Of a DNA stretch of 64,000 bases, positions 38,194-52,691 are shown piece by piece. Made by a program: the position numbers and the translations under genes. The DNA comes from Marivirga harenae (GTDB lineage: Bacteria; Bacteroidota; Bacteroidia; Cytophagales; Cyclobacteriaceae): positions 1,881,501 through 1,945,500 of the forward strand of contig NZ_CP130565.1 in NCBI RefSeq assembly GCF_030534335.1, read 5' to 3'. Position 1 is the first letter of the stretch, and every line of letters starts with the position of its first letter. The notes beneath the pieces are model-generated. The model searched no databases. It worked only from the letters and a program-made list of their open reading frames with translations, and was not told where the DNA came from.

Positions 38194-40032
38194 ATGATTT
38201 TCCTTTCATTACTTATTTCATTATTCATTTCCGATCCCTTGAAAGTAACTCAGGATCAAAATGAGATAATTCTTGGTCTGAAAGAATTGCAATCATATGA
38301 GGATAAAAGCAATCAATTAACATTTGCAGATGTGAAGTCTCCATCTTTTGCGGCAAATTTTACCCAGAAACCCAACTATAAACCCGAAGACTATAATAGG
38401 AATTCTACTTATTGGGTAAAATTGAATTTTACGCTTCCAGAGTATGAGGGAAATTATATTTTAGAGTTTTACGATCAAACCATTGATAGCATAAATGTTT
38501 TTATCAGGCAGAATAGAGGAGTGTATCGAAAGTATAATTTGGGTGATTCCTACCCATTCAGTAGTAAATCAATCAAGCACAAGAATTTTGATTTGACGTT
38601 AGATGCCAATAGTGAATATGAAGCTTATATTCAAATAAGGAATTCTCAATATGCTGATATAAGAGTGGCTATAAAGCGGATTGATCGTTTTATACAGTAC
38701 AGTCTCAATGAATACTTTTTGTATGGGATATTTTATGGAATGATTTTAATCATTTCACTGTATAATTTATTGATTTATCTGGCTATCAGAGAGATAAAGT
38801 ATATTTATTATACTTTTTACATTTTGAGTGTGGGTTTTTATGCCCTATGTATTGATGGGATAGCGTACCAATACTTATGGCCTGAACAACCCAATTGGAA
38901 TCAGCTGGCCTATGGCGTTGCCCTGTATTCAATTATTCTTTGGTCATCTATATTTTCCATGCGCTTTTTGAATACTAAAATTAGAGCGCCAAAGCTTCAT
39001 AAATTGATAGTAGCAGTATTGACAGCTCGATCATTACTATTTGTTTACTCATTATTTTTTGATCCCTCTTTATTTAGATTTCGAAATCTGGAGATTATAT
39101 TACTTTCCATCATATTTGTCAGTAGTATTTTTGTTTTTAGAAGAGGATATAAACCGGCTCGTTTCTTTGTTGTGGCGTATGGAATACTATTCCTAGGGTT
39201 TCTGATGCGAGCCCTCATCAATTGGTCGGTAATTCCATTTACTACCTTCAGTTACTATAGTCTTCATATTGGCTTTATATTAGAAATGTTGTTTTTAACC
39301 TTTGCCCTGTCTGATAGGGTAAGAATTTTGAAGGCTAACAGAGACAGGGCCTTAAAAAGGATTGTTACGCAACATGAACAAAATGTAAAAGTGATCAATA
39401 AGATCAACAAAGGGCTAGAAAGGAAGGTGGAGGAAAGAACAAAAGACCTTCATGAGAAAAATATTGAGCTACAAGTTTCAAATGAGCAAATTAATAAGCA
39501 ATCGAGGGAAATCGCTGAAATTAACTCAATGCTTGATCTGGATAATTGGAAACTAAAAAACAATATCAAGAAGATTCAGCGGGAAAGACTACTGAATAAG
39601 AACTTAAATTTTTCTGAGTTTTCAGAAATTTTCACCACCAAAGATCAATGTCTTGAAGTTTTGGCTTCTTTCAAATGGAAAAACGGATACGAATGCCAAA
39701 GGTGTGATAATACTAAGTATCAACTTAATGAAGAGAATCTAGCTAGAAGATGCACTAAATGTGGATACAATGAAAGTCCAACTGCATACACCATTTTTAA
39801 AGGTATTAAATTCGACTTACCCAAAGCTTTCTTTATTGTTTATGCCCATCTCAATGAGGACCGTTATACGTTGGATGAACTAGCACAGATCATGAACATG
39901 AGGAGGAATACCATTTGGGATTTCCAGCGAAAAGTACACGATGAAGTAGAAAATAATGGTAAAGCATATCTCAATAACCTGCTACACTTTGGATATGAAA
40001 GATTAACAAATTTTGTAGAAGTGAAGCGATAA
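38194..40032 (+). CDS. 7TMR-DISM membrane receptor fused to an IS1595-type zinc ribbon and HTH
   Basis: A 612-residue protein with three parts. Residues of about 20-165 form an extracellular 7TMR-DISM beta-sandwich (STYWVKLNFTLPEYEGNYILEF). Residues of about 174-380 hold seven membrane helices, from EYFLYGIFYGMILIISLYNL to LHIGFILEMLFLTFALS. A coiled coil follows (about 395-475). The tail is a zinc ribbon (C501-x2-C504, C520-x2-C523) then YTIFKGIKFDLPKAFFIVYA and a helix-turn-helix, YTLDELAQIMNMRRNTIWDF. That tail is the N-terminal half of IS1595-family transposases, without the DDE nuclease. It probably binds DNA from the membrane. The gene is upstream of susC by 262 bases. Confidence 0.75.
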   Translation: MIFLSLLISLFISDPLKVTQDQNEIILGLKELQSYEDKSNQLTFADVKSPSFAANFTQKPNYKPEDYNRNSTYWVKLNFTLPEYEGNYILEFYDQTIDSINVFIRQNRGVYRKYNLGDSYPFSSKSIKHKNFDLTLDANSEYEAYIQIRNSQYADIRVAIKRIDRFIQYSLNEYFLYGIFYGMILIISLYNLLIYLAIREIKYIYYTFYILSVGFYALCIDGIAYQYLWPEQPNWNQLAYGVALYSIILWSSIFSMRFLNTKIRAPKLHKLIVAVLTARSLLFVYSLFFDPSLFRFRNLEIILLSIIFVSSIFVFRRGYKPARFFVVAYGILFLGFLMRALINWSVIPFTTFSYYSLHIGFILEMLFLTFALSDRVRILKANRDRALKRIVTQHEQNVKVINKINKGLERKVEERTKDLHEKNIELQVSNEQINKQSREIAEINSMLDLDNWKLKNNIKKIQRERLLNKNLNFSEFSEIFTTKDQCLEVLASFKWKNGYECQRCDNTKYQLNEENLARRCTKCGYNESPTAYTIFKGIKFDLPKAFFIVYAHLNEDRYTLDELAQIMNMRRNTIWDFQRKVHDEVENNGKAYLNNLLHFGYERLTNFVEVKR

Positions 40033-40078
40033 TTGCATTATTTTAATATATCCTTAAAATTATTTTCATTGTTTTTTT

Positions 40079-40138
40079 AACAGGAAATCAAAATCAAAGT
40101 ATCGCTTCTTTAGCCTTTATCGAAATATATTTCCTGTT
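40079..40138. promoter_or_regulatory. 10-bp inverted repeat upstream of susC
   Basis: AACAGGAAAT (40079-40088) and ATTTCCTGTT (40129-40138) are perfect reverse complements. A second pair interleaves with them: GAAGCGATA (40023-40031) with TATCGCTTC (40100-40108). They lie between the receptor and susC, so an operator or RNA structure is possible. Untested. Confidence 0.4.
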
Positions 40139-40294
40139 TTTAAAGCGTTATAGAAAGTTGAAAAAAGCCTTTTTTCTCAATTGTATAATATAAAAATATC
40201 TATTTTTTAATTTTGAATTCATAAAAACATTCTCTTAACTTCATTAAAAGTAAGTTGTAGTAGAGGTCGCTCTTAGGGCCTAAAATGTTTTCTT

Positions 40295-43261
40295 ATGAAC
40301 AAAATTATACGATTAGTCTTGTTATTATTTTTCATCGCCAGTTCGTCCATGGCTCAAGTGGAATTAAAAGGAACTGTATCTGATGTTTCTACCAAAGAAG
40401 CTATTCCCGGTGTTTCTATTCAAGTAATTGGAACTGGAAGCGGTACTGTAACTGATCTTGACGGTAATTATAGTTTAACTATTGCAGAAGATGCTTCTTT
40501 GAGATTTTCATTTATTGGTTACAAAACTCAAGAAATAAATGTGAATGGTAGGAGCGTGATTAACATTCAATTAGAAGAAGACATTGAGGCCTTGGAAGAA
40601 GTTGTGGTAGTAGGTTATGGAGCTATCAAAAAAAGCGATTTGACTGGTTCGATTTCTTCTGTAAAGTCAGAAGAGATGATTAAAGCTCCTGCTGCAGATC
40701 CGATGCAGTCTTTGCAAGGGAAGGTAGCTGGATTGCAGGTGTTGAATAGTTCAGGTCAGCCTGGATCAGAGTCAAACGTCCGGTTAAGAGGTATCAATAC
40801 ATTAAATGACAATAGAGTATTATATGTCGTAGATGGGGTCATAATTGAGGGGGGAATCGGATTTTTGAATAGTAATGACATTGAATCTGTGGAGGTTTTG
40901 AAAGATGCTTCGTCCAAAGCAATCTACGGGACGAGAGGTGCTAATGGAGTAATTCTAGTAACAACAAAATCTGCAAAAGAAGGCGAAGGTAGTATTTCTT
41001 TCTCATCCGAATATGGGGTTGAAAGCATTGCTAATAAAATAGGGGTCATGTCAGGACCTGAATTTGCTAATTATATAAATGACGTTAATCCCGGTACATA
41101 TAATAACATTGGAATTCTCCCGGATACCGATTGGCAGGACTTGGTTTTTCAAGATGCGCAACCCGTTCAAACTTATACGCTATCAGCTAAAGGGGCTACA
41201 GAAAAACTTAATTATTACATTTCAGGTGGATATTTCTCGCAAGAGGGTATTGTGCCCAAGTCAGATTTTGAAAGATTTACTTTCAAATTGAATACGAGCT
41301 ACGAAGTAAAGCCCTACTTGACCATTGGGACTAATCTAACGGGGATTAATCTTCAGGCTACTAATCCTCCGGGCGTTGTGAATACTTTAATCAGAGCCTG
41401 GCCAATCAATGCTCCTTATAATAGCGATGACACCTTTGCTGAGGTGGAAGGAAGTAACCCTTTGGCAGCTATTGAATATAATAACTCCTCTAGAAATGAG
41501 TTAAGAGCTTTAGGTAACTTTTATGCGGAATTCTACTTCTTGGAAGATTTTGAATTTAGAACAAGTTATCAGTTTGACTTGAGTAATAGTAAAAACCGTT
41601 CTTTTACTCCAGAATATTTTGTTGCCCCCTTGCAGCAAAATGAAGAAAGTAGTATTAGTGTAGGCTTTGGGGAGAGCAGAAATTGGATATTTGAAAATAC
41701 CCTTTCTTACAATAAGGAATTCGATAAAAGCACAATAAATAGTGTTATTGGATATACCGCTCAGGAAATAAATTCGGAGTTTATAAATGGTGGAAGAAGA
41801 AACTTAATAGGTGTTGACCCAAGCCTTTGGTATTTAAGTGCTGGTGCTGAAGATTTGCAGACCAATTCAAATGGTGGAGGAACTAGTGCTTTAACTTCCA
41901 TTCTATTTAGAACAAACTATGCTTATGATGGTAGATATTTAGCTACTATCACTTTTCGTAGAGACGGTTCATCCCGCTTTGGACAAAATAATAGATACGC
42001 AAACTTTCCGGCTGCTGCATTAGGTTGGAATATTTCAAATGAAGATTTCTATCCGGTTAATTTTATTGTGAATAATTTGAAATTTCGAGCTAGTTATGGT
42101 TTAAATGGTAATCAAAATATTCCGGCAAATGATCAATTCTCTAGAATTGGTTCTGGCGTTAATACAGTTTTTGGTTTTGATGATACCCTAATTAACGGAG
42201 CTTCTTTCGTGGGAAGTCCTGGGAACTCTGATTTAAGATGGGAAACCACTGCAGAATATGATTTAGGCGTTGAATTTGATTTGTTTCAAAGTCGATTAAC
42301 TGGAGAGTTGGATTACTATAATCGTACTACAAGAGATATACTGGTAAATTTAGACTTACCAGGCTATGCCGGTGCTGGGGCATTTGTTCAGAAGAGGTTT
42401 AATGCTGCCACAGTGAACAATAGCGGAATCGAATTTGCATTAAATTGGGTCGATGATATAGGGGAATTCACCTACGGTTTGGGGATTAATGGTTATACCA
42501 ATAAAAACGAAGTACTGAATTTAGGTGAAGATATAGGAGCCTCAGAGCAGATTATCGGTGGAGATTTAGGCAATGGACAAAGAGTTACCTATACTGAGGT
42601 CGGGCAACCGATTGGGTATTTTTATGGCTACAAAGTGGCAGGCGTTTTTCAAAATGAAGAAGAACTAGAGGAATTTCCTCGCTTAAGCCAGCAAAGAGTT
42701 GGTGATTTTATTTATGAGGATGTGAATGGTGACGGAGAATTAAATGATGAGGACAAGACATTTATTGGTTCTTGGATCCCCGATTTTGTTTATGGCTTTA
42801 ACTTTAATGTGGGTTATAAAGGCATTAATGTTTCAGCTGATTTTGCAGGACAAATGGGGAATAGTATTTACAATGGAAAACAAGCTATCAGATTCTCGAC
42901 TCTAAATTTCGAGGATCGTTTCTTAGATAGATGGACTGGCGAGGAAACCTCAAATACTGACCCGAGAGCTTCTCTTTCAGGTATTAATTACCAACCTTCA
43001 GATTATTTTGTGGAGGATGCCTCTTTCCTAAAACTAAGAACAATTACCGTAAATTATCAGATACCACAATCCCTACTCGAGAAGATTAATTTTAGCAATG
43101 CCTCAATTTTCTTTAGAGGAACCAACCTTTTTGTATGGACTGATTACTCAGGATATACTCCAGAGATTGGAAGTGGTAATTCTGCATTAGGCGGTGTGAT
43201 TGACAATGGTATTTACCCAACCACTAGGGTGCTAAGTGGAGGTTTAAATGTGACATTTTAA
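40295..43261 (+). CDS. SusC/RagA-family TonB-linked outer-membrane protein
   Basis: A 988-residue TonB-dependent glycan importer. Signal peptide ends SSSMAQ. A CarboxypepD_reg-like domain follows (about 23-100: VELKGTVSDVSTKEAIPGVS). Next are the SusC signature EEVVVVGYGAIKKSDLTGSI and the plug (PMQSLQGKVAGLQV, VLKDASSKAIYGTRGANGV). The rest is a beta-barrel ending GLNVTF. It pairs with the SusD-like lipoprotein 13 bases downstream. It should import oligosaccharides released at the surface by the GH144 enzyme, in the usual Sus model. Length is typical. No internal break was seen. Confidence 0.96.
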   Translation: MNKIIRLVLLLFFIASSSMAQVELKGTVSDVSTKEAIPGVSIQVIGTGSGTVTDLDGNYSLTIAEDASLRFSFIGYKTQEINVNGRSVINIQLEEDIEALEEVVVVGYGAIKKSDLTGSISSVKSEEMIKAPAADPMQSLQGKVAGLQVLNSSGQPGSESNVRLRGINTLNDNRVLYVVDGVIIEGGIGFLNSNDIESVEVLKDASSKAIYGTRGANGVILVTTKSAKEGEGSISFSSEYGVESIANKIGVMSGPEFANYINDVNPGTYNNIGILPDTDWQDLVFQDAQPVQTYTLSAKGATEKLNYYISGGYFSQEGIVPKSDFERFTFKLNTSYEVKPYLTIGTNLTGINLQATNPPGVVNTLIRAWPINAPYNSDDTFAEVEGSNPLAAIEYNNSSRNELRALGNFYAEFYFLEDFEFRTSYQFDLSNSKNRSFTPEYFVAPLQQNEESSISVGFGESRNWIFENTLSYNKEFDKSTINSVIGYTAQEINSEFINGGRRNLIGVDPSLWYLSAGAEDLQTNSNGGGTSALTSILFRTNYAYDGRYLATITFRRDGSSRFGQNNRYANFPAAALGWNISNEDFYPVNFIVNNLKFRASYGLNGNQNIPANDQFSRIGSGVNTVFGFDDTLINGASFVGSPGNSDLRWETTAEYDLGVEFDLFQSRLTGELDYYNRTTRDILVNLDLPGYAGAGAFVQKRFNAATVNNSGIEFALNWVDDIGEFTYGLGINGYTNKNEVLNLGEDIGASEQIIGGDLGNGQRVTYTEVGQPIGYFYGYKVAGVFQNEEELEEFPRLSQQRVGDFIYEDVNGDGELNDEDKTFIGSWIPDFVYGFNFNVGYKGINVSADFAGQMGNSIYNGKQAIRFSTLNFEDRFLDRWTGEETSNTDPRASLSGINYQPSDYFVEDASFLKLRTITVNYQIPQSLLEKINFSNASIFFRGTNLFVWTDYSGYTPEIGSGNSALGGVIDNGIYPTTRVLSGGLNVTF

Positions 43262-43274
43262 AAAATTATAATTG

Positions 43275-44771
43275 ATGAAGACTTACAAAATATATTCATT
43301 AATCGGTTTGATCGCCTTCTTTCTCATTGTTGGATGTAAAGAAGAATTTCTGGAGAGACCACCGCAAGCAACTTTGGTGGCCGGTAATTTTCCCTCCACT
43401 GCTGAAGAAGCTATTATTGCCACCAATGGTATTTATAATACCTTAAGAATTTGGGGAATTTATTCTGGTGGATTTCCTTTAATCGATATTATGACTGATG
43501 AAATGGTCAAAGGAAGTAATCCGGGAGATGGAGTTCAAGTCTTAAATTTTCAAGACTATACCTTTACTTCAGACGATGGAAATATTGAAACCTGGTATAG
43601 AACATTATACTTAGGGATTAGGAGGTCCTACCTGGTTTTGGAAAAAGTACCTTCTATTGAAATGAATGCGGAGCTCAAAAGCAGATTATTGGGTGAGGCT
43701 CGGTTTTTACGCTCATTTTTTTATTTTTCCTTAGTTCAGGCCTTTGGAGATGTTCCATTAGTTGAGTCATCCGAAGCTCCAGATGGATTGGCAAGAACTG
43801 ATAAAGAAATCATTTATCAGGATATAATTTTCCCTGACTTATTATTTGCTGTAGATAATTTACCTGAGAAGTCAGAATATGCGGATGAAGATGCAGGTAG
43901 GATTACAAAAGGTGCTGCGCGAGCCATGTTAGCAAGAATCCATTTATACAGAAGCGAATTCCCTGAAGCGGCCACTTATGCACTAGAGGTGATTAATTCC
44001 CAGCAATATGACTTGGAAAATGAGTTTCAAATGGCTTTTCGTGTAGCTACGGAACATGGTGATGAGTCTGTTTTTGAGATTGGTGCTGTTGCTGAAAATA
44101 GTTTTGCCTTAGGAGGAAATCAATATGCCAATACGCAGGGGGTAAGAGGAACTCCCAATTGGGGATGGGGCTTTGGTAGGCCGTCATATACCTGGATAGA
44201 GAAATTAAATAATGAAAATGATCCGAGACTGGATGGATCTGTTATCTTTTTAGGCGATGTTATTGATGGAATCACTATTCAAGGTGATGGTACCACACCT
44301 GATACCACTTACGCTGAAGATGGTGCTATAGCTGAAATCGAAACTTACAACCAAAAGGTTTATGCCACAGGAGAATTAGCCGCAGATCGATGGGGGCATA
44401 ATAGAAGAGTGATTAGATATGCTGATGTTTTGTTAATGGCGGCAGAAGCTTTAAATGAAACTGGCAATTCAGCACAAGCATTAAATTACCTGAATGACGT
44501 GAGAGAAAGAGCAAGGGAGGATAATGATCAGATATTGTCAGATATTACTACAACCGATCCAAATCAATTAAGAGAAATTATTTACGAAGAACGCAGCCGA
44601 GAGCTAGCTTTTGAAGGCTTACGTTATTGGGATTTAGTTAGAACTGATCGTGCGGAAGAAATTTTAGGTCCTTTGGGATTTGAAACAGGGAAGCATGAAT
44701 TATTCCCTATTCCGCAATCTGAAATTAACATCTCGGAAGGAAAGATCTCCCAAAACCCAAATTGGAATTAA
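43275..44771 (+). CDS. SusD/RagB-family outer-membrane lipoprotein
   Basis: A 498-residue lipoprotein with a lipobox ending FLIVGC. The next residues are KEEF, an acidic lysine-glutamate start like the surface-export signals described for Bacteroidota lipoproteins. The SusD pattern is visible: FPSTAEEAIIATNGIYNTLR, RLLGEARFLRSFFYFSLVQAFGDVPLV, ARAMLARIHLYRSEFPEAATYA, RYADVLLMAAEALNETGN, and the C-terminal RSRELAFEGLRYWDLVRTD. It caps the SusC barrel and binds the glycan. ATG 43275 was chosen over a TTG three bases upstream. The next gene follows 28 bases downstream. Confidence 0.95.
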   Translation: MKTYKIYSLIGLIAFFLIVGCKEEFLERPPQATLVAGNFPSTAEEAIIATNGIYNTLRIWGIYSGGFPLIDIMTDEMVKGSNPGDGVQVLNFQDYTFTSDDGNIETWYRTLYLGIRRSYLVLEKVPSIEMNAELKSRLLGEARFLRSFFYFSLVQAFGDVPLVESSEAPDGLARTDKEIIYQDIIFPDLLFAVDNLPEKSEYADEDAGRITKGAARAMLARIHLYRSEFPEAATYALEVINSQQYDLENEFQMAFRVATEHGDESVFEIGAVAENSFALGGNQYANTQGVRGTPNWGWGFGRPSYTWIEKLNNENDPRLDGSVIFLGDVIDGITIQGDGTTPDTTYAEDGAIAEIETYNQKVYATGELAADRWGHNRRVIRYADVLLMAAEALNETGNSAQALNYLNDVRERAREDNDQILSDITTTDPNQLREIIYEERSRELAFEGLRYWDLVRTDRAEEILGPLGFETGKHELFPIPQSEINISEGKISQNPNWN

Positions 44772-44799: not shown

Positions 44800-46113
44800 A
44801 TGAGAATGCTAAGTAAAATGAAGTATTGGATCGGTGCCTTAATGCTAAGTGCGCTGGTTTTTACAGCTTGTGATGATGAACCGGATGAGGCACCCGATTT
44901 GACTATCACAGCTTTAACTGCAACTGGAACAGACATCACAACTGGTGATGAGGTAACTGTTGATTTAAATGGAGCTACGTCTGCCTCAGACGTTCCGCCT
45001 GATGCTGTATTTGAAATAACATTTGATAGAGAAGTAGATGCGGCAACAGCCACAGCTTCAAATATCACAGTTAGCGATGGAGATAATAATGTTTCCATTT
45101 CTGTATCAGCAAGCGGTAGCGTTGTAACTGTAACCCCAGATGAAGACTTAATTCAGGGGACTGACTACACAGTATCAGTTTCAAGCGCACTTACTGGCGC
45201 TGATGGTGGAGCAGTTACAAATGGCTCAAGAACTTTCGATACAGCTGGTAGACTACCAGTAGTAGCCCCTCAAGAGGCAAGCCAAGTTGCATACTGGAAA
45301 TTTGATGGTGATGCTTCCGATGAGATGGGTAATTTCCAAGATGGAGAGGAAATTGCTATAGAATATCAGGAAGACCGATTTGGTTCCGTTAATAGCACTG
45401 CATATTTTGATGGTGATGCTAGTATAATTGAAGTACCTGCAGCAGCTTCATTATTAGATGATACTGAAAGTTTTACGCTTAGCTTTTGGTTAAAAGTTCA
45501 ACCAGAAGGTCATGTAAATGATAATGGAGATCCAACAGGGATGTTTGTTTTTGGTTTGGGAGCATTTTTCGGGATTCAATATGAAATTTTTGGTTCTTTT
45601 GAAGGTTCCAAATACGCAGTAAGCTATGTAAACGATGAGGGAGTAGAAACTGCTGAAGACATGTTCTATCCAAGTGAAGCTACTGACAATACTAATGGTG
45701 GATGGCAAGGCTGGGATTTCGCAAGAAGTCTTTCTCCAACTCAAATGCAAGACATTATTGTTGACAATTGGTACCATAATGTATTTACATATAATGCTGA
45801 AGAGAAAAAAGGCTATTTGTATTTTGATGGACAATTAATGAAGAGTTTTGATTTCAACTTATGGCCAGAAGGCGATACAAAAAGAACAATCACAGGGGTA
45901 ACTTACAGGGGAGCAGAACCTGAGGTATTTGATGATCTTGCATTCGGATTTATCCATTCCAGAGCAGGTAGTTTATTTGATGATGCCGCTTTTGGAAACT
46001 ACGAGAATCCAAATGCAAACCACTTTAAAGGTTGGTTAGATGATTTCAGAATTATTCATGCAGCATATTCTGAAGACGATGTGACATCTCTTTACGAAGC
46101 CGAAAGACCATAA
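44800..46113 (+). CDS. LamG-domain lipoprotein with Ig-like domain (candidate surface glycan-binding protein)
   Basis: A 437-residue lipoprotein with lipobox ALVFTAC and mature start CDDEPDEAPD, an acidic surface-export-like signal. Residues of about 30-135 form a Big_5/SbsA Ig-like domain (DVPPDAVFEITFDREVDAAT). Residues of about 150-430 are a concanavalin-like LamG domain (VAYWKFDGDASDEMGNF, SFTLSFWLKVQPEG, WLDDFRIIHAAYS). In such loci the third lipoprotein usually binds the polysaccharide at the cell surface. ATG 44800 was chosen; the earlier frame start lies inside susD. A strong terminator follows at 46135-46164. Confidence 0.8.
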   Translation: MRMLSKMKYWIGALMLSALVFTACDDEPDEAPDLTITALTATGTDITTGDEVTVDLNGATSASDVPPDAVFEITFDREVDAATATASNITVSDGDNNVSISVSASGSVVTVTPDEDLIQGTDYTVSVSSALTGADGGAVTNGSRTFDTAGRLPVVAPQEASQVAYWKFDGDASDEMGNFQDGEEIAIEYQEDRFGSVNSTAYFDGDASIIEVPAAASLLDDTESFTLSFWLKVQPEGHVNDNGDPTGMFVFGLGAFFGIQYEIFGSFEGSKYAVSYVNDEGVETAEDMFYPSEATDNTNGGWQGWDFARSLSPTQMQDIIVDNWYHNVFTYNAEEKKGYLYFDGQLMKSFDFNLWPEGDTKRTITGVTYRGAEPEVFDDLAFGFIHSRAGSLFDDAAFGNYENPNANHFKGWLDDFRIIHAAYSEDDVTSLYEAERP

Positions 46114-46182: not shown

Positions 46183-48171
46183 ATGTCATATTCACCTAAG
46201 CCTTTATTATCCTTCCTAGTATTGTTCCTACTAAGTGGAATCTTGGTCTCCTGTAAGGAGGAGCAAGAGCCTGAGGAATTAGGTCTTTTACAATTGAGAA
46301 GTATAAGATTAGGTACCCTTGATTTAGTTGAAGGGGAGGTAACCGAAAATGCTCCATTTGACAAAGGTCTTGTCATTGAATTTACTGATCCATTGGATAG
46401 AAATTCAGCTGAGGAAAACATTAGTATTTCAACTGAAGAGGTTGATTTAGCCTTGAACTTTTCTTATCTGAACGAAGATAAAGCCATATCAGCATTGCCT
46501 GAAAATGACTTTCAAAATAATACTGTTTATACTATAACAGTTGGGACTTTACGTTCTGTAAACAACAAAGAGTTCCCTGGTGGAACCTATCAATTTAAGA
46601 CAGAACAAGGGGAGATAAAATTACTTAGTGTAGAAGTAGATGGTATATCATTACAAAGCACTAACCGAATTGACAACATATCCCTAAATCCTGAAATTAT
46701 CTTGGCTTTTAACCAAATGCTAAATCCTAATACTGATTTTAGCGATTTCATTTCACTTATCAATAAAGGAGCTCGCTTGCCTTTAAGTTTCAACCTTTCA
46801 GAAGACCAAAAAACATTGCAAGTCCAAAGCCAAGAAGAGGCAAGAGATTTGGTTCGATATAACTTTAATATATCGAATGATTTACCAAGTGAAAATGAAT
46901 TTCAATTCTCAGGATTTGACAAAATATTCTATACCCAATTAGACTCTACCTTCAAATTTAACGAACTATCAGATGAAGCGCTTTTAACAAAAGTTCAAGC
47001 CCAAACTTTTAAGTATTTTTGGGATTTTGCCCATCCCAATAGTGGATTAGCTAGAGAGAGAAATACCTCTGGAGATGTGGTGACTATTGGTGGTTCTGGT
47101 TTTGGAGTTATGGCCATTATTGTGGGCATTGAAAGAGGTTTTATCACAAGGCAAGAGGGAATTGATCGACTTGAGAAAATTGTTGATTTTTTATCTCAGG
47201 CAGACCGCTTTCATGGTGTTTGGCCGCATTGGATGAATGGAAATACAGGAAATACGATTCCTTTTAGTGAGTTGGATGATGGTGCTGATTTAGTAGAGAC
47301 CGCTTTTATGATCCAAGGTTTGTTGGCGGTAAGACAATATTTGAATGGATCAAATGCACAAGAACTGGCTATTATTAACCAGATTACTACATTGTGGGAA
47401 GAAGTAGAATGGGATTGGTTTACCAAGGGTGGAGAAGATGTATTGTATTGGCATTGGTCACCCGAAAATGAATGGGCAATGAATCTTCCCATTAGAGGTT
47501 GGAATGAGAGCTTAATAATCTATGTACTTGCTGCTTCTTCCCCTACTCATCCTATTGAAAAATCAGTTTATGATGCTGGTTGGGCCAGAAATGGCGGGAT
47601 CGTTAATGGTACTTCAACTTATGGTATTTCAATGCCAGTAGGGGAAGATAGAGGAGGCCCCCTTTTCTTTGCACATTACTCATTTTTGGGCCTAGATCCT
47701 CGAAACCTTCAAGATCAATACGCCAATTATTGGGAACAAAACCAAGCACATTCTTTAATTAACCAAGCTTATTGCATTGACAACCCCAACAATTTTGTGG
47801 GCTACAGTGAAGCTTCTTGGGGATTAACAGCAAGTGACAATCACGTAGGATATAGCGCTCACTCTCCTGGGAATGATTTAGGAGTAATTACCCCTACTGC
47901 TGCCTTATCATCAATTCCCTATACTCCTGAAGAATCTATGAAAGCTATTAAGCATTTTTATTATTTGTTAGGAGATAGGTTATGGGGCGAATATGGCTTT
48001 TATGATGCTTTTAATGTGACCCAGGATTGGTATGCCAATTCTTATTTAGCTATCGATCAAGGACCGATCATTACTATGATAGAAAATCATAGAACGGCAT
48101 TAATCTGGAATACCTTCATGCAAGATTCAGATGTGCAGAATGGGTTAGATGATTTAGGATTTACTTTTTAA
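46183..48171 (+). CDS. GH144-like lipoprotein (predicted endo-beta-1,2-glucanase), surface-exposed
   Basis: A 662-residue protein with lipobox ILVSC and mature start CKEEQEPEE, a surface-export-like signal. Residues of about 30-255 form two Ig-like domains. From about 265, LLTKVQAQTFKYFWDFAHPNSGLARER opens an (alpha/alpha)6 barrel of the glycoamylase-like/GH144 family. VTIGGSGFGVMAIIVGIERGF, RFHGVWPHWMNG, DDGADLVETAFMIQGLL and WDWFTKGGEDVLYWHWSP follow, with the family's acidic residues. Known GH144 members cut beta-1,2-glucan. It would make the first cut outside the cell. No defect was seen. Confidence 0.85.
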   Translation: MSYSPKPLLSFLVLFLLSGILVSCKEEQEPEELGLLQLRSIRLGTLDLVEGEVTENAPFDKGLVIEFTDPLDRNSAEENISISTEEVDLALNFSYLNEDKAISALPENDFQNNTVYTITVGTLRSVNNKEFPGGTYQFKTEQGEIKLLSVEVDGISLQSTNRIDNISLNPEIILAFNQMLNPNTDFSDFISLINKGARLPLSFNLSEDQKTLQVQSQEEARDLVRYNFNISNDLPSENEFQFSGFDKIFYTQLDSTFKFNELSDEALLTKVQAQTFKYFWDFAHPNSGLARERNTSGDVVTIGGSGFGVMAIIVGIERGFITRQEGIDRLEKIVDFLSQADRFHGVWPHWMNGNTGNTIPFSELDDGADLVETAFMIQGLLAVRQYLNGSNAQELAIINQITTLWEEVEWDWFTKGGEDVLYWHWSPENEWAMNLPIRGWNESLIIYVLAASSPTHPIEKSVYDAGWARNGGIVNGTSTYGISMPVGEDRGGPLFFAHYSFLGLDPRNLQDQYANYWEQNQAHSLINQAYCIDNPNNFVGYSEASWGLTASDNHVGYSAHSPGNDLGVITPTAALSSIPYTPEESMKAIKHFYYLLGDRLWGEYGFYDAFNVTQDWYANSYLAIDQGPIITMIENHRTALIWNTFMQDSDVQNGLDDLGFTF

Positions 48172-48282
48172 AGAGAGTCTATTAGGTAACTACTCGAGGG
48201 AAAATTGTATCTCTTTGATAGTCAGTGTCAAATGATAAATATTTTTAAAATTAATTATTAGATTCCATACAAATAATTTGAA

Positions 48283-49623
48283 ATGAAAAATATACTTTTA
48301 TTAATTACTACGGCATTGCTTTTTTCTTTTTGTTCTTCCCCTCAAAAGGAAAAGGAAGAAAGCACGAATAAAATGGATGATGATTCACTATTGAATTTAG
48401 TGCAATATCAAACTTTCCAGTATTTCTGGGACGGGGCAGAACCTAATTCTGGGCTAGCTAGGGAAAGATTTCACGAGGATGATGTTTATCCTTCAAATGA
48501 TAAGCATATCGTAACTACCGGAGGCTCAGGCTTTGGTTTAATGGCCATCATTGTAGGTGTAGAAAGAGGGTTTGTCGAACGAAATGAAGCGATTGCAAGA
48601 TTTGGAAAGATATTAGATTTTCTGGAAACGGCTGATCGTTTTCATGGAGCTTATCCGCATTGGTTAAATGGTGAAACGGGAGAAGTAAAGGCATTTAGCA
48701 AAAAAGATGATGGTGGAGATTTAGTGGAAACTGCTTTTCTGATTCAAGGACTTTTAACAGTCAGACAGTTTTTAGATTCTTCAATTGCAGCAGAGGAAAA
48801 ACTTGCGCAACGAATTACAAGCATTTGGGAAGGAGTAGAATGGGATTGGTACACAAAAGGTGGAGAAAATGTGTTGTATTGGCACTGGTCGCCTAACCAT
48901 GGCTGGGACATGAATTTCCCAGTCGGAGGCTATAACGAATGCCTAATTATGTATGTGTTGGCAGCCTCTTCTCCAACGCATCCTATAAAGGCCGATGTAT
49001 ATCACAAAGGTTGGGCAAGAGATGGCGCAATTGCTAATGATACAACTGTCTTTGGCTTGCCAACTATATTGGATCATTTCGAACATGCCAATAAAGCTGT
49101 TGGGCCTTTATTTTGGGCTCACTATTCCTATTTGGGTTTAAATCCTAAAAATTTGAATGACAAATACGGCAACTACTGGGATTTGAATAAAAATCATGCA
49201 CTCATTCAATATAGATATGCAGTAGAGAATCCTAATAATTTTGAGGGATATGGAGAAAATATGTGGGGCTTAACCTCCAGCTATTCCATGAGAGGATATG
49301 CTGGACATAATCCTAGTGATGATTTAGGTGTGATTTCTCCAACTGCGGCACTCTCTTCCTTTCCTTATACCCCAAAGGAAAGTATGCAGTTTCTAAAATT
49401 TTTATATGAACCTAAAAGAGATAGTTTGATAGGAAATTTCGGTGCGTATGATGCTTTCTCTTTTGAACATGATTGGTATGTACCTCGCTACTTGGCGATT
49501 GATCAAGGACCAATCCCAGTCATGATTGAAAACCATCGTTCAGGTTTGATTTGGGAGCTGTTTATGCAGAATAAAGAAATTGAAAATGGGCTTTCTAAAC
49601 TAGGGTTTTACTATGAAGAATAA
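48283..49623 (+). CDS. GH144-like lipoprotein, probably periplasmic paralogue
   Basis: A 446-residue glycoamylase-like/GH144 protein, clearly related to the upstream gene but without Ig-like domains. Conserved stretches repeat: LLNLVQYQTFQYFWDGAEPNSGLARERF, TTGGSGFGLMAIIVGVERGF, WDWYTKGGENVLYWHWSPNH and YLAIDQGPIPVMIENHRSGLIW. The lipobox FSFC is followed by SSPQKEKEE, lacking the immediate acidic run, so it is predicted to face the periplasm. It may trim imported oligosaccharides. Its stop overlaps the next esterase gene by 11 bases. Confidence 0.85.
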   Translation: MKNILLLITTALLFSFCSSPQKEKEESTNKMDDDSLLNLVQYQTFQYFWDGAEPNSGLARERFHEDDVYPSNDKHIVTTGGSGFGLMAIIVGVERGFVERNEAIARFGKILDFLETADRFHGAYPHWLNGETGEVKAFSKKDDGGDLVETAFLIQGLLTVRQFLDSSIAAEEKLAQRITSIWEGVEWDWYTKGGENVLYWHWSPNHGWDMNFPVGGYNECLIMYVLAASSPTHPIKADVYHKGWARDGAIANDTTVFGLPTILDHFEHANKAVGPLFWAHYSYLGLNPKNLNDKYGNYWDLNKNHALIQYRYAVENPNNFEGYGENMWGLTSSYSMRGYAGHNPSDDLGVISPTAALSSFPYTPKESMQFLKFLYEPKRDSLIGNFGAYDAFSFEHDWYVPRYLAIDQGPIPVMIENHRSGLIWELFMQNKEIENGLSKLGFYYEE

Positions 49624-50401
49624 GGGGAAATACTTCTTTGGTATTCTTTTGAGCCTTCTGGTATTCAATGCCAGTGGACAAGATAAATCGAGCTTCCTCA
49701 GGGCTGAATTGATTGAAGGGAAAGATACTTTAAGATATAGAATCTTGTATCCTGAAAATTTTGATCCAGCTAAAAAGTATCCTCTTGTTTTGTTTTTACA
49801 TGGAGCAGGCGAAAGAGGAAGCGATAATGAAAAGCAGCTTGTTCATGGTAGTGATCTTTTTCTTGCAAAGGATACTCGTGAGAATTTCCCAGCTGTTGTT
49901 ATTTTTCCACAGTGCCCTAAATCAGAATACTGGGCGAAAGCTGAAATAGTTCGCTCTTCTGAAGGGAACACATTTGATTTTGATTATTCACTTGACCCTC
50001 ATGCTAGTATGCGAATGGTCATGGATTTGGTAAAGAGTTTTAGCCAAAATCACTTCATTGATGAATCAAGATTATATGTGGGTGGCCTTTCCATGGGAGG
50101 TATGGGGACTTTCGAAATACTGCATAGAATGCCGAATACATTTGCCGCAGCATTTGCCATTTGTGGTGCTGGGAATCCTTATTCTGTAGGGAATTACGCC
50201 AAAAAAGTAGATATGTGGGTTTTCCATGGTGCAAAGGATGATGTTGTAGAGCCTTCTTATTCTAAAAATATGGTGAAATCATTAGAGGAAGCAGGAGCTA
50301 ATGTGAAATTCACACAGTATCCTAAGGCTAATCATAATAGCTGGGACCTGGCTTTTGCAGAACCTGAATTACTTAGTTGGTTATTTTCAAATTCAAAATA
50401 G
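49613..50401 (+). CDS. Exported alpha/beta-hydrolase (esterase-like)
   Basis: A 262-residue protein with a signal peptide ending NASGQ. The alpha/beta-hydrolase pattern is clear: oxyanion strand PLVLFLHGAGERGSDNEKQL, nucleophile elbow GGLSMGGMG (Ser), acid in FHGAKDDVVEPS and His in YPKANHNSWDLAF. This resembles the feruloyl/phospholipase-carboxylesterase type often found in polysaccharide loci. It could remove an ester substituent from the glycan. Starts inside the end of the GH144 gene, and the GH3 gene follows 7 bases after its stop, so all three are coupled. Confidence 0.85.
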   Translation: MKNKGKYFFGILLSLLVFNASGQDKSSFLRAELIEGKDTLRYRILYPENFDPAKKYPLVLFLHGAGERGSDNEKQLVHGSDLFLAKDTRENFPAVVIFPQCPKSEYWAKAEIVRSSEGNTFDFDYSLDPHASMRMVMDLVKSFSQNHFIDESRLYVGGLSMGGMGTFEILHRMPNTFAAAFAICGAGNPYSVGNYAKKVDMWVFHGAKDDVVEPSYSKNMVKSLEEAGANVKFTQYPKANHNSWDLAFAEPELLSWLFSNSK

Positions 50402-50408
50402 ATTACAA

Positions 50409-52691
50409 ATGAAATTTTTAATAGTATCCTTTCTTGGTTTTTTGTTGATTTTGGGCAGTTGTACAAATGTTCAGCAAAATGAAAACACTTCTAGTATAGA
50501 CCAAAAAGTAGATTCTTTACTGGCTGTTATGTCCCTGGAAGAAAAAATTGGGCAATTGAACCTGCCTTCCGCTGGAGATGTAAGTACTGGAATTAGTACA
50601 AATAAAGGTATAGCCAAACAAATTAAGGAAGGAAAAGTAGGAGGATTGTTCAATATTAATGGATTGGACAAAATCCGCGAAGTGCAAAAGGTTGCAGTGG
50701 AGGAAAGCCGCTTAGGAATCCCTTTAATAATAGCAAAAGATGTTATACATGGTTATAAAACGACTTTTCCGATTCCTATTGGCCTATCTGCCAGTTGGGA
50801 TATGGATTTGATAGAAAAATCGGCAAGAATAGCCGCTGAAGAAGCCTCTGCTGATGGTATTGCTTGGACTTTTTCTCCCATGACTGATATTTCTAGAGAT
50901 CCACGATGGGGAAGAGTCTCAGAAGGCAGTGGTGAAGATCCCTATTTAGGTGGTCAAATTGCTTCGGCCATGGTGAGAGGTTATCAAGGAGATGATCTAT
51001 CTGCAGCCAATACTTTGTTGGCCTGCGTAAAACATTTTGCGCTTTACGGTGCCTCTGAAGCTGGTAGAGATTATAATACAGTGGACATGGGACGCTTGAG
51101 GATGTATAATGATTATTTCCCGCCTTACAAAGCAGCAGTAGATGCAGGAGTTGGTACTGCTATGGCTTCTTTCAATGAAATAGATGGGGTTCCAGCCACA
51201 GGCAATAAATGGTTGATGACGGATGTACTTCGTTATGCTTGGGACTTTGATGGCTTTGTGGTGAGTGATTACACAGGTGTTAGCGAAATGATTGCCCACG
51301 GAATGGGTGATTTACAACAAGTTTCGGCTTTAGCCATCAATGCAGGAGTGGAAATGGATATGGTAAGTGAAGGCTTTTTAACGACATTAGAAAAATCTGT
51401 AGCAGAAGGCAAGGTTACGGAAGCAACCATAACAAATGCAGCTAGACTGATTTTGAAAGCCAAGTTTCAATTAGGCTTGTTTGATGACCCTTACCGATAT
51501 ATGGACGAAGAACGAGCTTCTCAGGAAATTTTCTCAGCTGAAAACAGAGCAGTTGCAAGAAAAATTGCTGCTGAATCTATGGTTTTATTGAAGAATGATA
51601 AGGCCTTACCGCTTCAAAAAGATGCTAAAATAGCGTTGATTGGTCCATTAGCCAATAATAAAGAAAATATGGTGGGAACCTGGAGTGTTAGCTCGGATAT
51701 CAGCAAATCAGTTTCGATTTATGATGGGATTAAAGAAGTCTCTACTAATCCTGAGAATGTGAAATATGCAAAAGGCTCTAACTTGGTCGAAGATGCTGAT
51801 CTGGAAGAGCGTATTGGCATGTTTGGCAAAAACACTTACCGAGACGACCGACCTGAAGCAGTAATGATTGCTGAAGCAGTGCAATTAGCTAAGAATGCTG
51901 ATGTGGTAGTGGCTGTTTTAGGCGAGGCTTCCGAAAGCTCTGGCGAAAGTTCAAGCTTAACGGATATCAGTATTCCTGATGTTCAGGTGAATTTATTAAA
52001 GGCATTGAAGGCCACTGGGAAAAAAATAGTAGTGGTTTTGTTAAGTGGAAGGCCACTAGTTTTAAATGAAATATTAGAAGATTCAGATGCTATTTTGAAT
52101 GCTTGGTTTCCAGGCTCTGAAGCAGGTTTGGCTTTAGCAGATGTTTTATACGGTGATGTTAATCCATCTGGAAAATTGACCATGACCTATCCTCAAAATG
52201 TAGGACAAATTCCAATTTACTATGCCCATAAAAACACGGGACGTCCTTTGGAAGGAGAATGGTTCCAAAAATTTAAGACCAATTATTTGGATGTTTCTAA
52301 CGAGCCGGAATTTCCTTTCGGGTATGGATTAAGTTATACCAGTTTCTCTTATGATAATTTAAGCTTGAGTTCAGAAAGCATAGGTATGGATGAAAGTTTA
52401 ACCTTATCTGTGGAGGTAACGAATTCCGGAGATCTTACAGGTAAAGAAGTTGTTCAATTATATATCCGTGATTTGGTGGGAACTGTTACGCGTCCTGTTA
52501 AAGAATTAAAAGGCTTTGAAAAAATCGAATTAAAGGCTGGAGAGACTAAAACCATAGAATTTACTTTAAGTAAAAGTGATCTAGGATTCTATCATCAAGA
52601 CATGAGTTTTTATGCGGAACCGGGAAAATTCAAGGTCTTTGTAGGAACTAATTCGGATGAAGTTTTAGAATCAGAGTTTGAATTAAAATGA
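50409..52691 (+). CDS. Glycoside hydrolase family 3 beta-glucosidase-like lipoprotein
   Basis: A 760-residue GH3 enzyme with lipobox LILGSC and a mature start TNVQQNE, without a surface-export signal, so probably periplasmic. Domain order is the (beta/alpha)8 barrel, then a 6-stranded sandwich, then a fibronectin-III-like C-terminus (SLTLSVEVTNSGDLTGKEVVQLYI). The nucleophile is Asp287 in GFVVSDYTGV. VKHFALYGASEAGRDYN and SPMTDISRDPRWGRVSEGSGEDP are typical. GH3 enzymes beside GH144 are known to hydrolyse sophoro-oligosaccharides to glucose. ATG 50409 was chosen, as it starts the signal; the longer frame overlaps the esterase gene. Confidence 0.92.
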   Translation: MKFLIVSFLGFLLILGSCTNVQQNENTSSIDQKVDSLLAVMSLEEKIGQLNLPSAGDVSTGISTNKGIAKQIKEGKVGGLFNINGLDKIREVQKVAVEESRLGIPLIIAKDVIHGYKTTFPIPIGLSASWDMDLIEKSARIAAEEASADGIAWTFSPMTDISRDPRWGRVSEGSGEDPYLGGQIASAMVRGYQGDDLSAANTLLACVKHFALYGASEAGRDYNTVDMGRLRMYNDYFPPYKAAVDAGVGTAMASFNEIDGVPATGNKWLMTDVLRYAWDFDGFVVSDYTGVSEMIAHGMGDLQQVSALAINAGVEMDMVSEGFLTTLEKSVAEGKVTEATITNAARLILKAKFQLGLFDDPYRYMDEERASQEIFSAENRAVARKIAAESMVLLKNDKALPLQKDAKIALIGPLANNKENMVGTWSVSSDISKSVSIYDGIKEVSTNPENVKYAKGSNLVEDADLEERIGMFGKNTYRDDRPEAVMIAEAVQLAKNADVVVAVLGEASESSGESSSLTDISIPDVQVNLLKALKATGKKIVVVLLSGRPLVLNEILEDSDAILNAWFPGSEAGLALADVLYGDVNPSGKLTMTYPQNVGQIPIYYAHKNTGRPLEGEWFQKFKTNYLDVSNEPEFPFGYGLSYTSFSYDNLSLSSESIGMDESLTLSVEVTNSGDLTGKEVVQLYIRDLVGTVTRPVKELKGFEKIELKAGETKTIEFTLSKSDLGFYHQDMSFYAEPGKFKVFVGTNSDEVLESEFELK

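Follow-up and report, generated by a model that had tools for sequence, protein, structure and literature searches.

The protein encoded by nucleotides 38194–40032 on the plus strand of the window, the 64,000-nucleotide stretch of Marivirga harenae DNA analysed here, joins a 7TMR-DISM membrane receptor to the zinc ribbon and helix-turn-helix of an IS1595-type transposase in a single chain of 612 residues, as indicated by its open reading frame, Pfam matches, and an AlphaFold model. Very probably, the receptor is embedded in the membrane and regulates transcription of a polysaccharide utilization locus as a one-component protein, which would bind paired sites and most likely activate its targets. 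The combination of a receptor with a transposase-like head, neighbouring genes for polysaccharide uptake, and a matching pair of sites suggests direct switching from the membrane. A first-pass annotation of the window had proposed the domesticated transposase domain and the control of adjoining genes; the predicted operator, the signalling helix with its ERT motif, the wide occurrence of the family, and the parallel with SusR go beyond it.

The periplasmic sensor of the receptor is a 7TMR-DISMED2 domain formed by residues 31–159 (nucleotides 38284–38670, plus strand), which was identified by Pfam with an E-value of 1.9e-24 and a score of 86.6 bits against a cut-off of 22. It is followed by the membrane domain 7TMR-DISM_7TM in residues 173–375 (38710–39318, plus strand; E-value 4.4e-45, 154.6 bits against a cut-off of 29). 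The structure predicted by AlphaFold from an alignment of 25 proteins has a mean pLDDT of 84.0 and a pTM of 0.61. It contains a beta domain with strands between residues 24 and 162, seven membrane-length helices, and a small C-terminal domain. The last membrane helix continues unbroken as a single helix spanning residues 356–444, and residues 443–468 are poorly defined. The extracellular DISM domain, the seven membrane helices, and the coiled coil described in the first-pass annotation were thus all recovered.

The coiled coil, which follows the membrane domain and precedes the zinc ribbon, belongs to the S-helix type (residues ~400–444; 39391–39525, plus strand). S-helices are coiled-coil linkers that connect the sensor with the output of many signalling proteins and carry an ERT signature (PMC1592074). 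Residue N405 of the receptor corresponds to the S-helix asparagine and E414-R415-T416 to the ERT signature. Residues N405, L408, R415, and T416 are invariant both among 13 and among 25 aligned proteins. The RT pair is present within the S-helix segment of all 80 relatives analysed, and a stricter pattern in 61 of them. Histidine kinase, ATPase, and receiver domains were not found in the receptor by a Pfam scan up to an E-value of 5.

The putative DNA-binding head of the receptor consists of an IS1595-type zinc ribbon with cysteines C501, C504, C520, and C523 and a helix-turn-helix (residues ~471–592; 39604–39969, plus strand), assigned from Pfam family PF12760, the conserved cysteines, and a phylogenetic tree. 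In the whole protein, residues 483–525 match the Zn_ribbon_IS1595 profile with an E-value of 1.2e-4 and 22.4 bits, under the cut-off of 25.4 bits; residues 470–592 searched alone reach 26.0 bits (E-value 9.2e-6), over the cut-off. The profile is matched by all 13 homologous domains scanned, at E-values of 0.1 or lower, the best being 2.1e-8. The positions of the four cysteines had been given correctly in the first-pass annotation, and all four are retained in the 80 relatives, in which K494, W495, T530, F535, and F577 are invariant as well. Transposases of the IS1595 family have a DDE domain and, in the groups of the family except IS1016, an N-terminal zinc finger (PMC8101967). By contrast, the zinc ribbon of the receptor is C-terminal. 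The earlier statement that the DDE nuclease is missing holds, since a Pfam scan up to an E-value of 5 detected no DDE_Tnp_IS1595 domain in the receptor, the open reading frame of which stops ~20 residues past the helix-turn-helix. A profile search for a relative of the C-terminal domain with a solved structure was unconvincing, as its best match, at an E-value of 0.016, was a zinc-binding domain of protein kinase C.

The phylogenetic tree was calculated with the PMSF model from 98 domains aligned over 123 columns, for which the 80 receptors were thinned to 44 and 13 more were added. The 57 receptor domains, together with one membrane-anchored variant that lacks the sensor, form a single clade (95/86). 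The nearest branches to the receptor clade are the stand-alone 137-residue protein L263 and then L264, and other transposases are positioned further out. The tree has a midpoint root and a weakly supported deep fork (86/41), and the small number of columns triggered a program warning. L264, though truncated by the end of its contig, matches both Zn_ribbon_IS1595 (E-value 2.2e-6) and DDE_Tnp_IS1595 (7.5e-20), and the C-terminal domain of the receptor is 39% identical to it across 120 residues. The nesting of the receptor domains, as one clade, among IS1595-like transposases favours a single event in which a receptor acquired a transposase head. Profile and tree together support the derivation of the putative DNA-binding head from an IS1595-type transposase, in agreement with the domestication proposed earlier.

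The protein beside the receptor clade, L263 (L263:1197–1607), is composed of a zinc ribbon and a helix-turn-helix and is possibly a soluble regulator. Genome G470 contains eleven paralogues of IS1595-like transposases (L252–L262). In L252, L256, L258, and L260, other residues (for example, CELGIN and TNGW) occupy the places of the acidic motifs VDE and TDxW, and these proteins look as if they had been domesticated separately.

Relatives of the receptor are encoded by 401 stretches of GTDB contigs, the best 80 of which were analysed. The sensor, S-helix, and zinc ribbon with helix-turn-helix are encoded in one frame in all 80 loci; because these are the best of the 401, the set is biased towards near relatives. 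In a search of 39 genomes, full-length relatives were found in six of the nine other genomes of the same genus, and more distant genomes were also positive. The remaining three genomes of the genus lack a full-length receptor. One of them, G006, retains a sequence corresponding to receptor residues 1–134 only (L015, G006:C1:100648–101049; 71% identity), which contains an internal stop and is apparently what is left of a receptor that was lost. Profile A4, built from the C-terminal domain, has matches at an E-value of 0.001 or lower in at least 128 of 291 genomes from the order and in at least 56 of 395 genomes sampled from the phylum; these tallies include transposases and are based on 15 or 11 first-look candidates scored per genome. 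Some genomes encode several copies of the receptor, with G141 having 14 matches, 12 of them with E-values below 1e-40. Of the 12 strong frames, one is truncated at the end of its contig and another is without a sensor. A variant of 303 residues (L275:5799–6707) has N-terminal hydrophobic segments, a coiled coil, and the same putative DNA-binding domain, and no match to DISM.

The genes downstream of the receptor gene in the window are characteristic of polysaccharide uptake. The predicted targets on the plus strand are a SusC-like TonB-dependent transporter (40295–43261; Pfam CarbopepD_reg_2 and Plug), a SusD-like lipoprotein (43272–44771; SusD_RagB), and a protein with Big_5 and laminin-G domains, the start of which was set at 44800 within a mechanical open reading frame beginning at 44680 (44800–46113). 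The predicted regulon continues in 46183–52691 of the same strand with two Glycoamylase (PF10091) proteins, an alpha/beta hydrolase, and a GH3 enzyme, and the gene of the GH3 enzyme is followed by that of a sulfatase. In 60 of the 80 loci, the receptor gene is directly followed on its own strand by a SusC-like gene, mostly at a distance of 230–300 bp. SusC is two open reading frames downstream in five loci, three of the intervening frames being only 70–96 residues long and possibly not genes. SusC is a divergent neighbour in two loci and absent from the examined flank in 13. Whereas SusC is within 1.5 kb of 65 of the 80 fused receptors, it is that close to none of 15 DISM genes of relatives in which the zinc ribbon and helix-turn-helix are not matched up to an E-value of 1; one of the 15, from the genome of the window, has a SusC-like match slightly more than 1.5 kb away. 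Glycoside hydrolases adjoin or are near the receptor gene in all five of the scanned loci without SusC, which were selected because their neighbours resembled such enzymes. These hydrolases belong to GH81, GH20, GH9, and GH97 in G141 and to GH30 in L056.

The intergenic DNA between receptor and susC genes carries a TGTTATTAAAGCG-like motif, usually in two same-strand copies 64–66 bp apart. The motif determined de novo by expectation maximization from 59 such regions is TTAaTGTTATTAAAGCG.aAAA, with a log-likelihood of 434 at a width of 22, compared with 78 for a single shuffled set. Same-strand pairs with both copies above 7 bits have spacings of 64, 65, and 66 bp in 19, 12, and 10 of 61 regions, respectively, and no other spacing from the range of 25–149 bp recurs in two or more regions. 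A pair scoring above 20 bits is present in 47 of the 61 regions, with the other 14 below this value, compared with none on the opposite strand and none in each of ten Markov-1 controls. When the matrix was replaced by self-matching of at least 13 of 18 positions, 32 of the 61 regions contained a match at 63–67 bp, against 2–13 in ten other 5-bp windows of spacing. In most regions the predicted sites lie ~135–250 bp ahead of the susC start.

The predicted operator in the window consists of a distal copy, TCATTGTTTTTTTAACAGGAAA (40066–40087, plus strand; PWM score 12.9 bits), and a proximal copy, TTCCTGTTTTTAAAGCGTTATA (40131–40152, plus strand; 21.3 bits), which is 65 bp from the distal one and 164 bp ahead of the susC start. 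No single site on either strand of the 64-kb window scores higher than the proximal copy. The pair at 40066–40152, with 34.2 bits, is the best of the window, and no other pair spaced 63–67 bp on either strand comes near its score. In several receptor-susC regions, including those of L046, L058, and L101, the paired sites have sequences similar to GCAAACGTTT and AATCGATT in their vicinity; these resemble LacI-type operators and hint at a second regulator.

The paired motif was also found outside the training set. All five held-out loci with an open reading frame between receptor and SusC have a pair straight after the receptor, with scores of 26.5–40.8 bits and in one case a spacing of 63 bp. 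Among 53 regions upstream of SusC-type genes from the genome of the window and nine relatives, a pair above 20 bits precedes all six SusC genes that adjoin a receptor, some of which are training loci, and only two of the 47 others. Sixty SusC loci had been entered, and seven were left out because they had no hit, lacked the N-terminus, or had too little upstream DNA. The 47 receptor-less rows include two pairs of rows representing the same gene with identical scores (L151/L165 and L152/L154), other TonB receptors, and L319, which has a receptor two genes away. The genomes of the two exceptions, G276 and G309, each have a single receptor-type match among the 15 candidates scored, and it does not adjoin SusC. 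The pair in G309 precedes a susCD locus with enzymes like those of the window (Glycoamylase 66%, hydrolase 56%, and GH3 63% identical), and that in G276 precedes a susCD locus with a Glycoamylase of 54% identity in the stretch examined. The unlinked loci located behind the predicted operator and containing homologues of the window's enzymes are L349, with one Glycoamylase gene, and L351, with Glycoamylase, hydrolase, and GH3 genes. The presence of the pair before window-like loci in G276 and G309, where the receptor is encoded elsewhere, indicates that the sites stay with the target, as is expected of a trans-acting factor. The pattern TGTTTTTNAAGCGNNA has 12 exact matches in nine genomes, seven of them at predicted operators, against three for the backwards-pattern control; exact-match searches of the receptor-bearing genomes G016 and G022 gave none. 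The regulation of adjoining sus-like genes anticipated by the first-pass annotation is therefore supported at the level of sequence, by the position of SusC next to the receptor and by the paired motif that tracks it, and the survey of fusions and of their distances to susC that the annotation had suggested gave the counts reported above.

Scanning with the matrix found no paired motif in most loci lacking SusC or in more distant families, and no pair at the two loci with divergent SusC. L056 is the sole member of the 13 SusC-less loci with a pair above 16 bits after the receptor (18.4 bits), and in L077 the pair is inside the receptor gene. A strong pair of 26.7 bits in L107 (L107:8017–8103), also without SusC, is positioned near a contig end ~4.3 kb from the receptor and possibly marks a second target. 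SusC follows the receptor within 1.5 kb in 17 of 37 further loci, which partly overlap the 80, include one transposase (L232), and are in some cases cut by contig ends; pairs above 20 bits are present in five, all from the family of the window. No pair is present in L233, a locus of the same family in which SusC follows the receptor after 277 bp. An extension of the predicted operator to genus g28 of family f13 (15 loci, five without SusC in the examined flank) was rejected, because the matrix fails there. Expectation maximization of the DNA behind the receptors of this genus (L120–L140, L225, and L227) yielded CGTGTGC.GTAAGTGTATAA, several instances of which have a weak second copy 24–25 bp further on. 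CGTGTGC.GTAAGTGTATAA is a possible variant operator of f13/g28; the related-looking core TGT-N5-AAG[CT]G with its weak 24-bp repeat may be a phylogenetic footprint only. Since the set represents one genus, it does not provide independent evidence.

Distances between operators correlate with those between DNA-binding domains (50 loci; Mantel p 0.001, partial p 0.001). However, the partial correlation is 0.18 with the DNA-binding domain and 0.19 with the sensor, and since operator divergence follows the sensor equally well, a specific co-evolution of operator and DNA-binding domain is not demonstrated. Transposon ends were rejected as a source of the predicted operator. Inspection of related elements from G012, G002, G011, G653, G413, G358, and G409, either for their ends or with the operator matrix, gave no convincing match, the best single scores being 14.8 bits (L191) and 11.3 bits (L287). 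An inverted repeat in L194 resembles the predicted operator and differs from it in internal spacing.

The architecture of the receptor suggests how a signal could reach the DNA. The periplasmic DISMED2 domain would sense a sugar linked to the substrate of SusC and SusD; the DISMED2 domain of NicD has been linked to direct carbohydrate binding (PMC8544897). The resulting change would travel via the seven-helix bundle into the continuous helix predicted by the model, which may become a dimeric S-helix. The S-helix dimer could place or free two heads, each composed of a zinc ribbon and a helix-turn-helix, the binding of which to DNA would depend on zinc. The two heads would then bind the conserved pair of sites, which lie upstream of susC on the same face of the DNA, separated by approximately six helical turns. 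From positions of about −164 and −229 relative to the susC start, the receptor would activate the genes for SusC, SusD, glycoamylases, and the GH3 enzyme. Activation of these genes, rather than their repression, is the most likely outcome by analogy with SusR.

Repression from the same sites is unlikely, but it would differ from activation by its sign alone: unliganded dimers would occupy both sites, and the ligand would release them. The sequence data fit either sign, and pairs of sites can serve repression too. However, sites ~135–250 bp before a gene start, such as those ahead of susC, are further upstream than the usual core promoter. Furthermore, both SusR (PMC3878776) and CadC (PMC7888679) are activators, which argues for activation by the receptor.

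It is quite improbable that the receptor works through a protein partner, in which case its zinc ribbon would contact protein and another regulator would bind the paired motif. Zinc ribbons can mediate contacts between proteins, and a different factor could own the paired motif. Several of the same intergenic regions contain other palindromes such as CAAACGTTTG, which makes further regulators likely, and operator distance tracks the DNA-binding domain no better than the sensor. Nevertheless, the receptor also retained the helix-turn-helix region, its C-terminal domain belongs to a transposase-rooted clade, and no kinase or receiver domain is present in the protein. The pair occurs where the receptor is linked to SusC and is nearly absent at other SusC genes. 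A functionless fusion produced by chance or recently, either by an assembly error or by the insertion of a transposase into a receptor gene, is extremely improbable. The score of the zinc ribbon under the gathering cut-off of Pfam in the whole protein and the absence of a full-length copy from three of the nine other genomes of the genus, one of which has the N-terminal remnant, would fit such an event; the one-frame architecture in all 80 loci, the invariant cysteines, and the conserved neighbourhood argue against it. A receptor that itself binds the paired sites from the membrane thus accounts best for these observations.

The receptor can be compared with several groups of membrane and DNA-binding proteins. 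It shares the DISMED2 sensor and the 7TM domain with NicD (PMC8544897); however, the output of NicD is a GGDEF enzyme, and that of the receptor is a transposase-type DNA-binding domain. Some proteins with the ChiS domain also join 7TMR-DISM to a C-terminal DNA-binding domain (PMC8092284). By contrast, the ChiS domain is a cryptic variant of the helix-turn-helix found in proteobacterial genomes, and the pertinent passages of its description mention no zinc ribbon (PMC8092284). The zinc ribbon and helix-turn-helix region are shared with IS1595-family transposases, which differ from the receptor in having the DDE domain. Transmembrane transcription regulators combine membrane helices and a DNA-binding domain in one chain, as is predicted for the receptor; their survey contains neither “transposase” nor “7TM” in its main text (PMC10269533). 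Hybrid two-component systems are membrane-anchored regulators of many SusC/D loci (PMC3878776); however, the receptor is without the histidine kinase, ATPase, and receiver domains. Among the titles and abstract openings listed in searches of open-licence papers, none describes this fusion or operator. The pairing of sensor and output appears to be new, and the kind of protein, a membrane one-component glycan regulator, is known.

The closest working analogue of the receptor is SusR of Bacteroides, a membrane activator. SusR-like regulators are one-component proteins with a cytoplasmic C-terminal helix-turn-helix, often encoded beside susC and susD (PMC3878776). The predicted direct repeats of SusR are separated by 67 or 77 bp between centres and have been read as binding dimers on one side of the DNA six or seven turns apart (PMC3878776); the operator predicted for the receptor has a similarly long spacing of 64–66 bp. 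In contrast to SusR-like proteins, the receptor has the DISMED2 domain, seven helices, an S-helix, and a zinc ribbon. DUF6377 proteins, which we take to be the SusR family, have by eye one mid-protein membrane segment and a different C-terminal helix-turn-helix. No homology to them was detected: hmmsearch found no match to the zinc-ribbon domain up to an E-value of 10 in 11 DUF6377 proteins, and the hhalign probability was 2.8%. The receptor is best read as a regulator that functions as SusR does, with no homology detected between the two. In the genome of the window, a DUF6377 gene (L293, G000:C1:3385180–3385944) is located just upstream of another SusC, and both types of regulator therefore seem to coexist.

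The receptor and its relatives provide a bacterial example in which the DNA-binding domain of a transposase appears to have become the output of a membrane receptor. They form a recognizable family of regulators, and the operator predicted for the family of the window lets targets in polysaccharide loci be read from sequence. It is reasonably likely that they represent an unnamed class of membrane one-component glycan regulators, in which 7TMR-DISM and an IS1595-type head were joined once, spread through Cytophagales and somewhat beyond, and reached a SusR-like operator geometry independently. If so, long fixed spacing might be general for membrane-tethered regulators of SusC/D loci. The resemblance of the operator geometry to that of SusR, in proteins with no detected homology, raises the question of whether tethering to the membrane favours two distant sites on the same face of the DNA.
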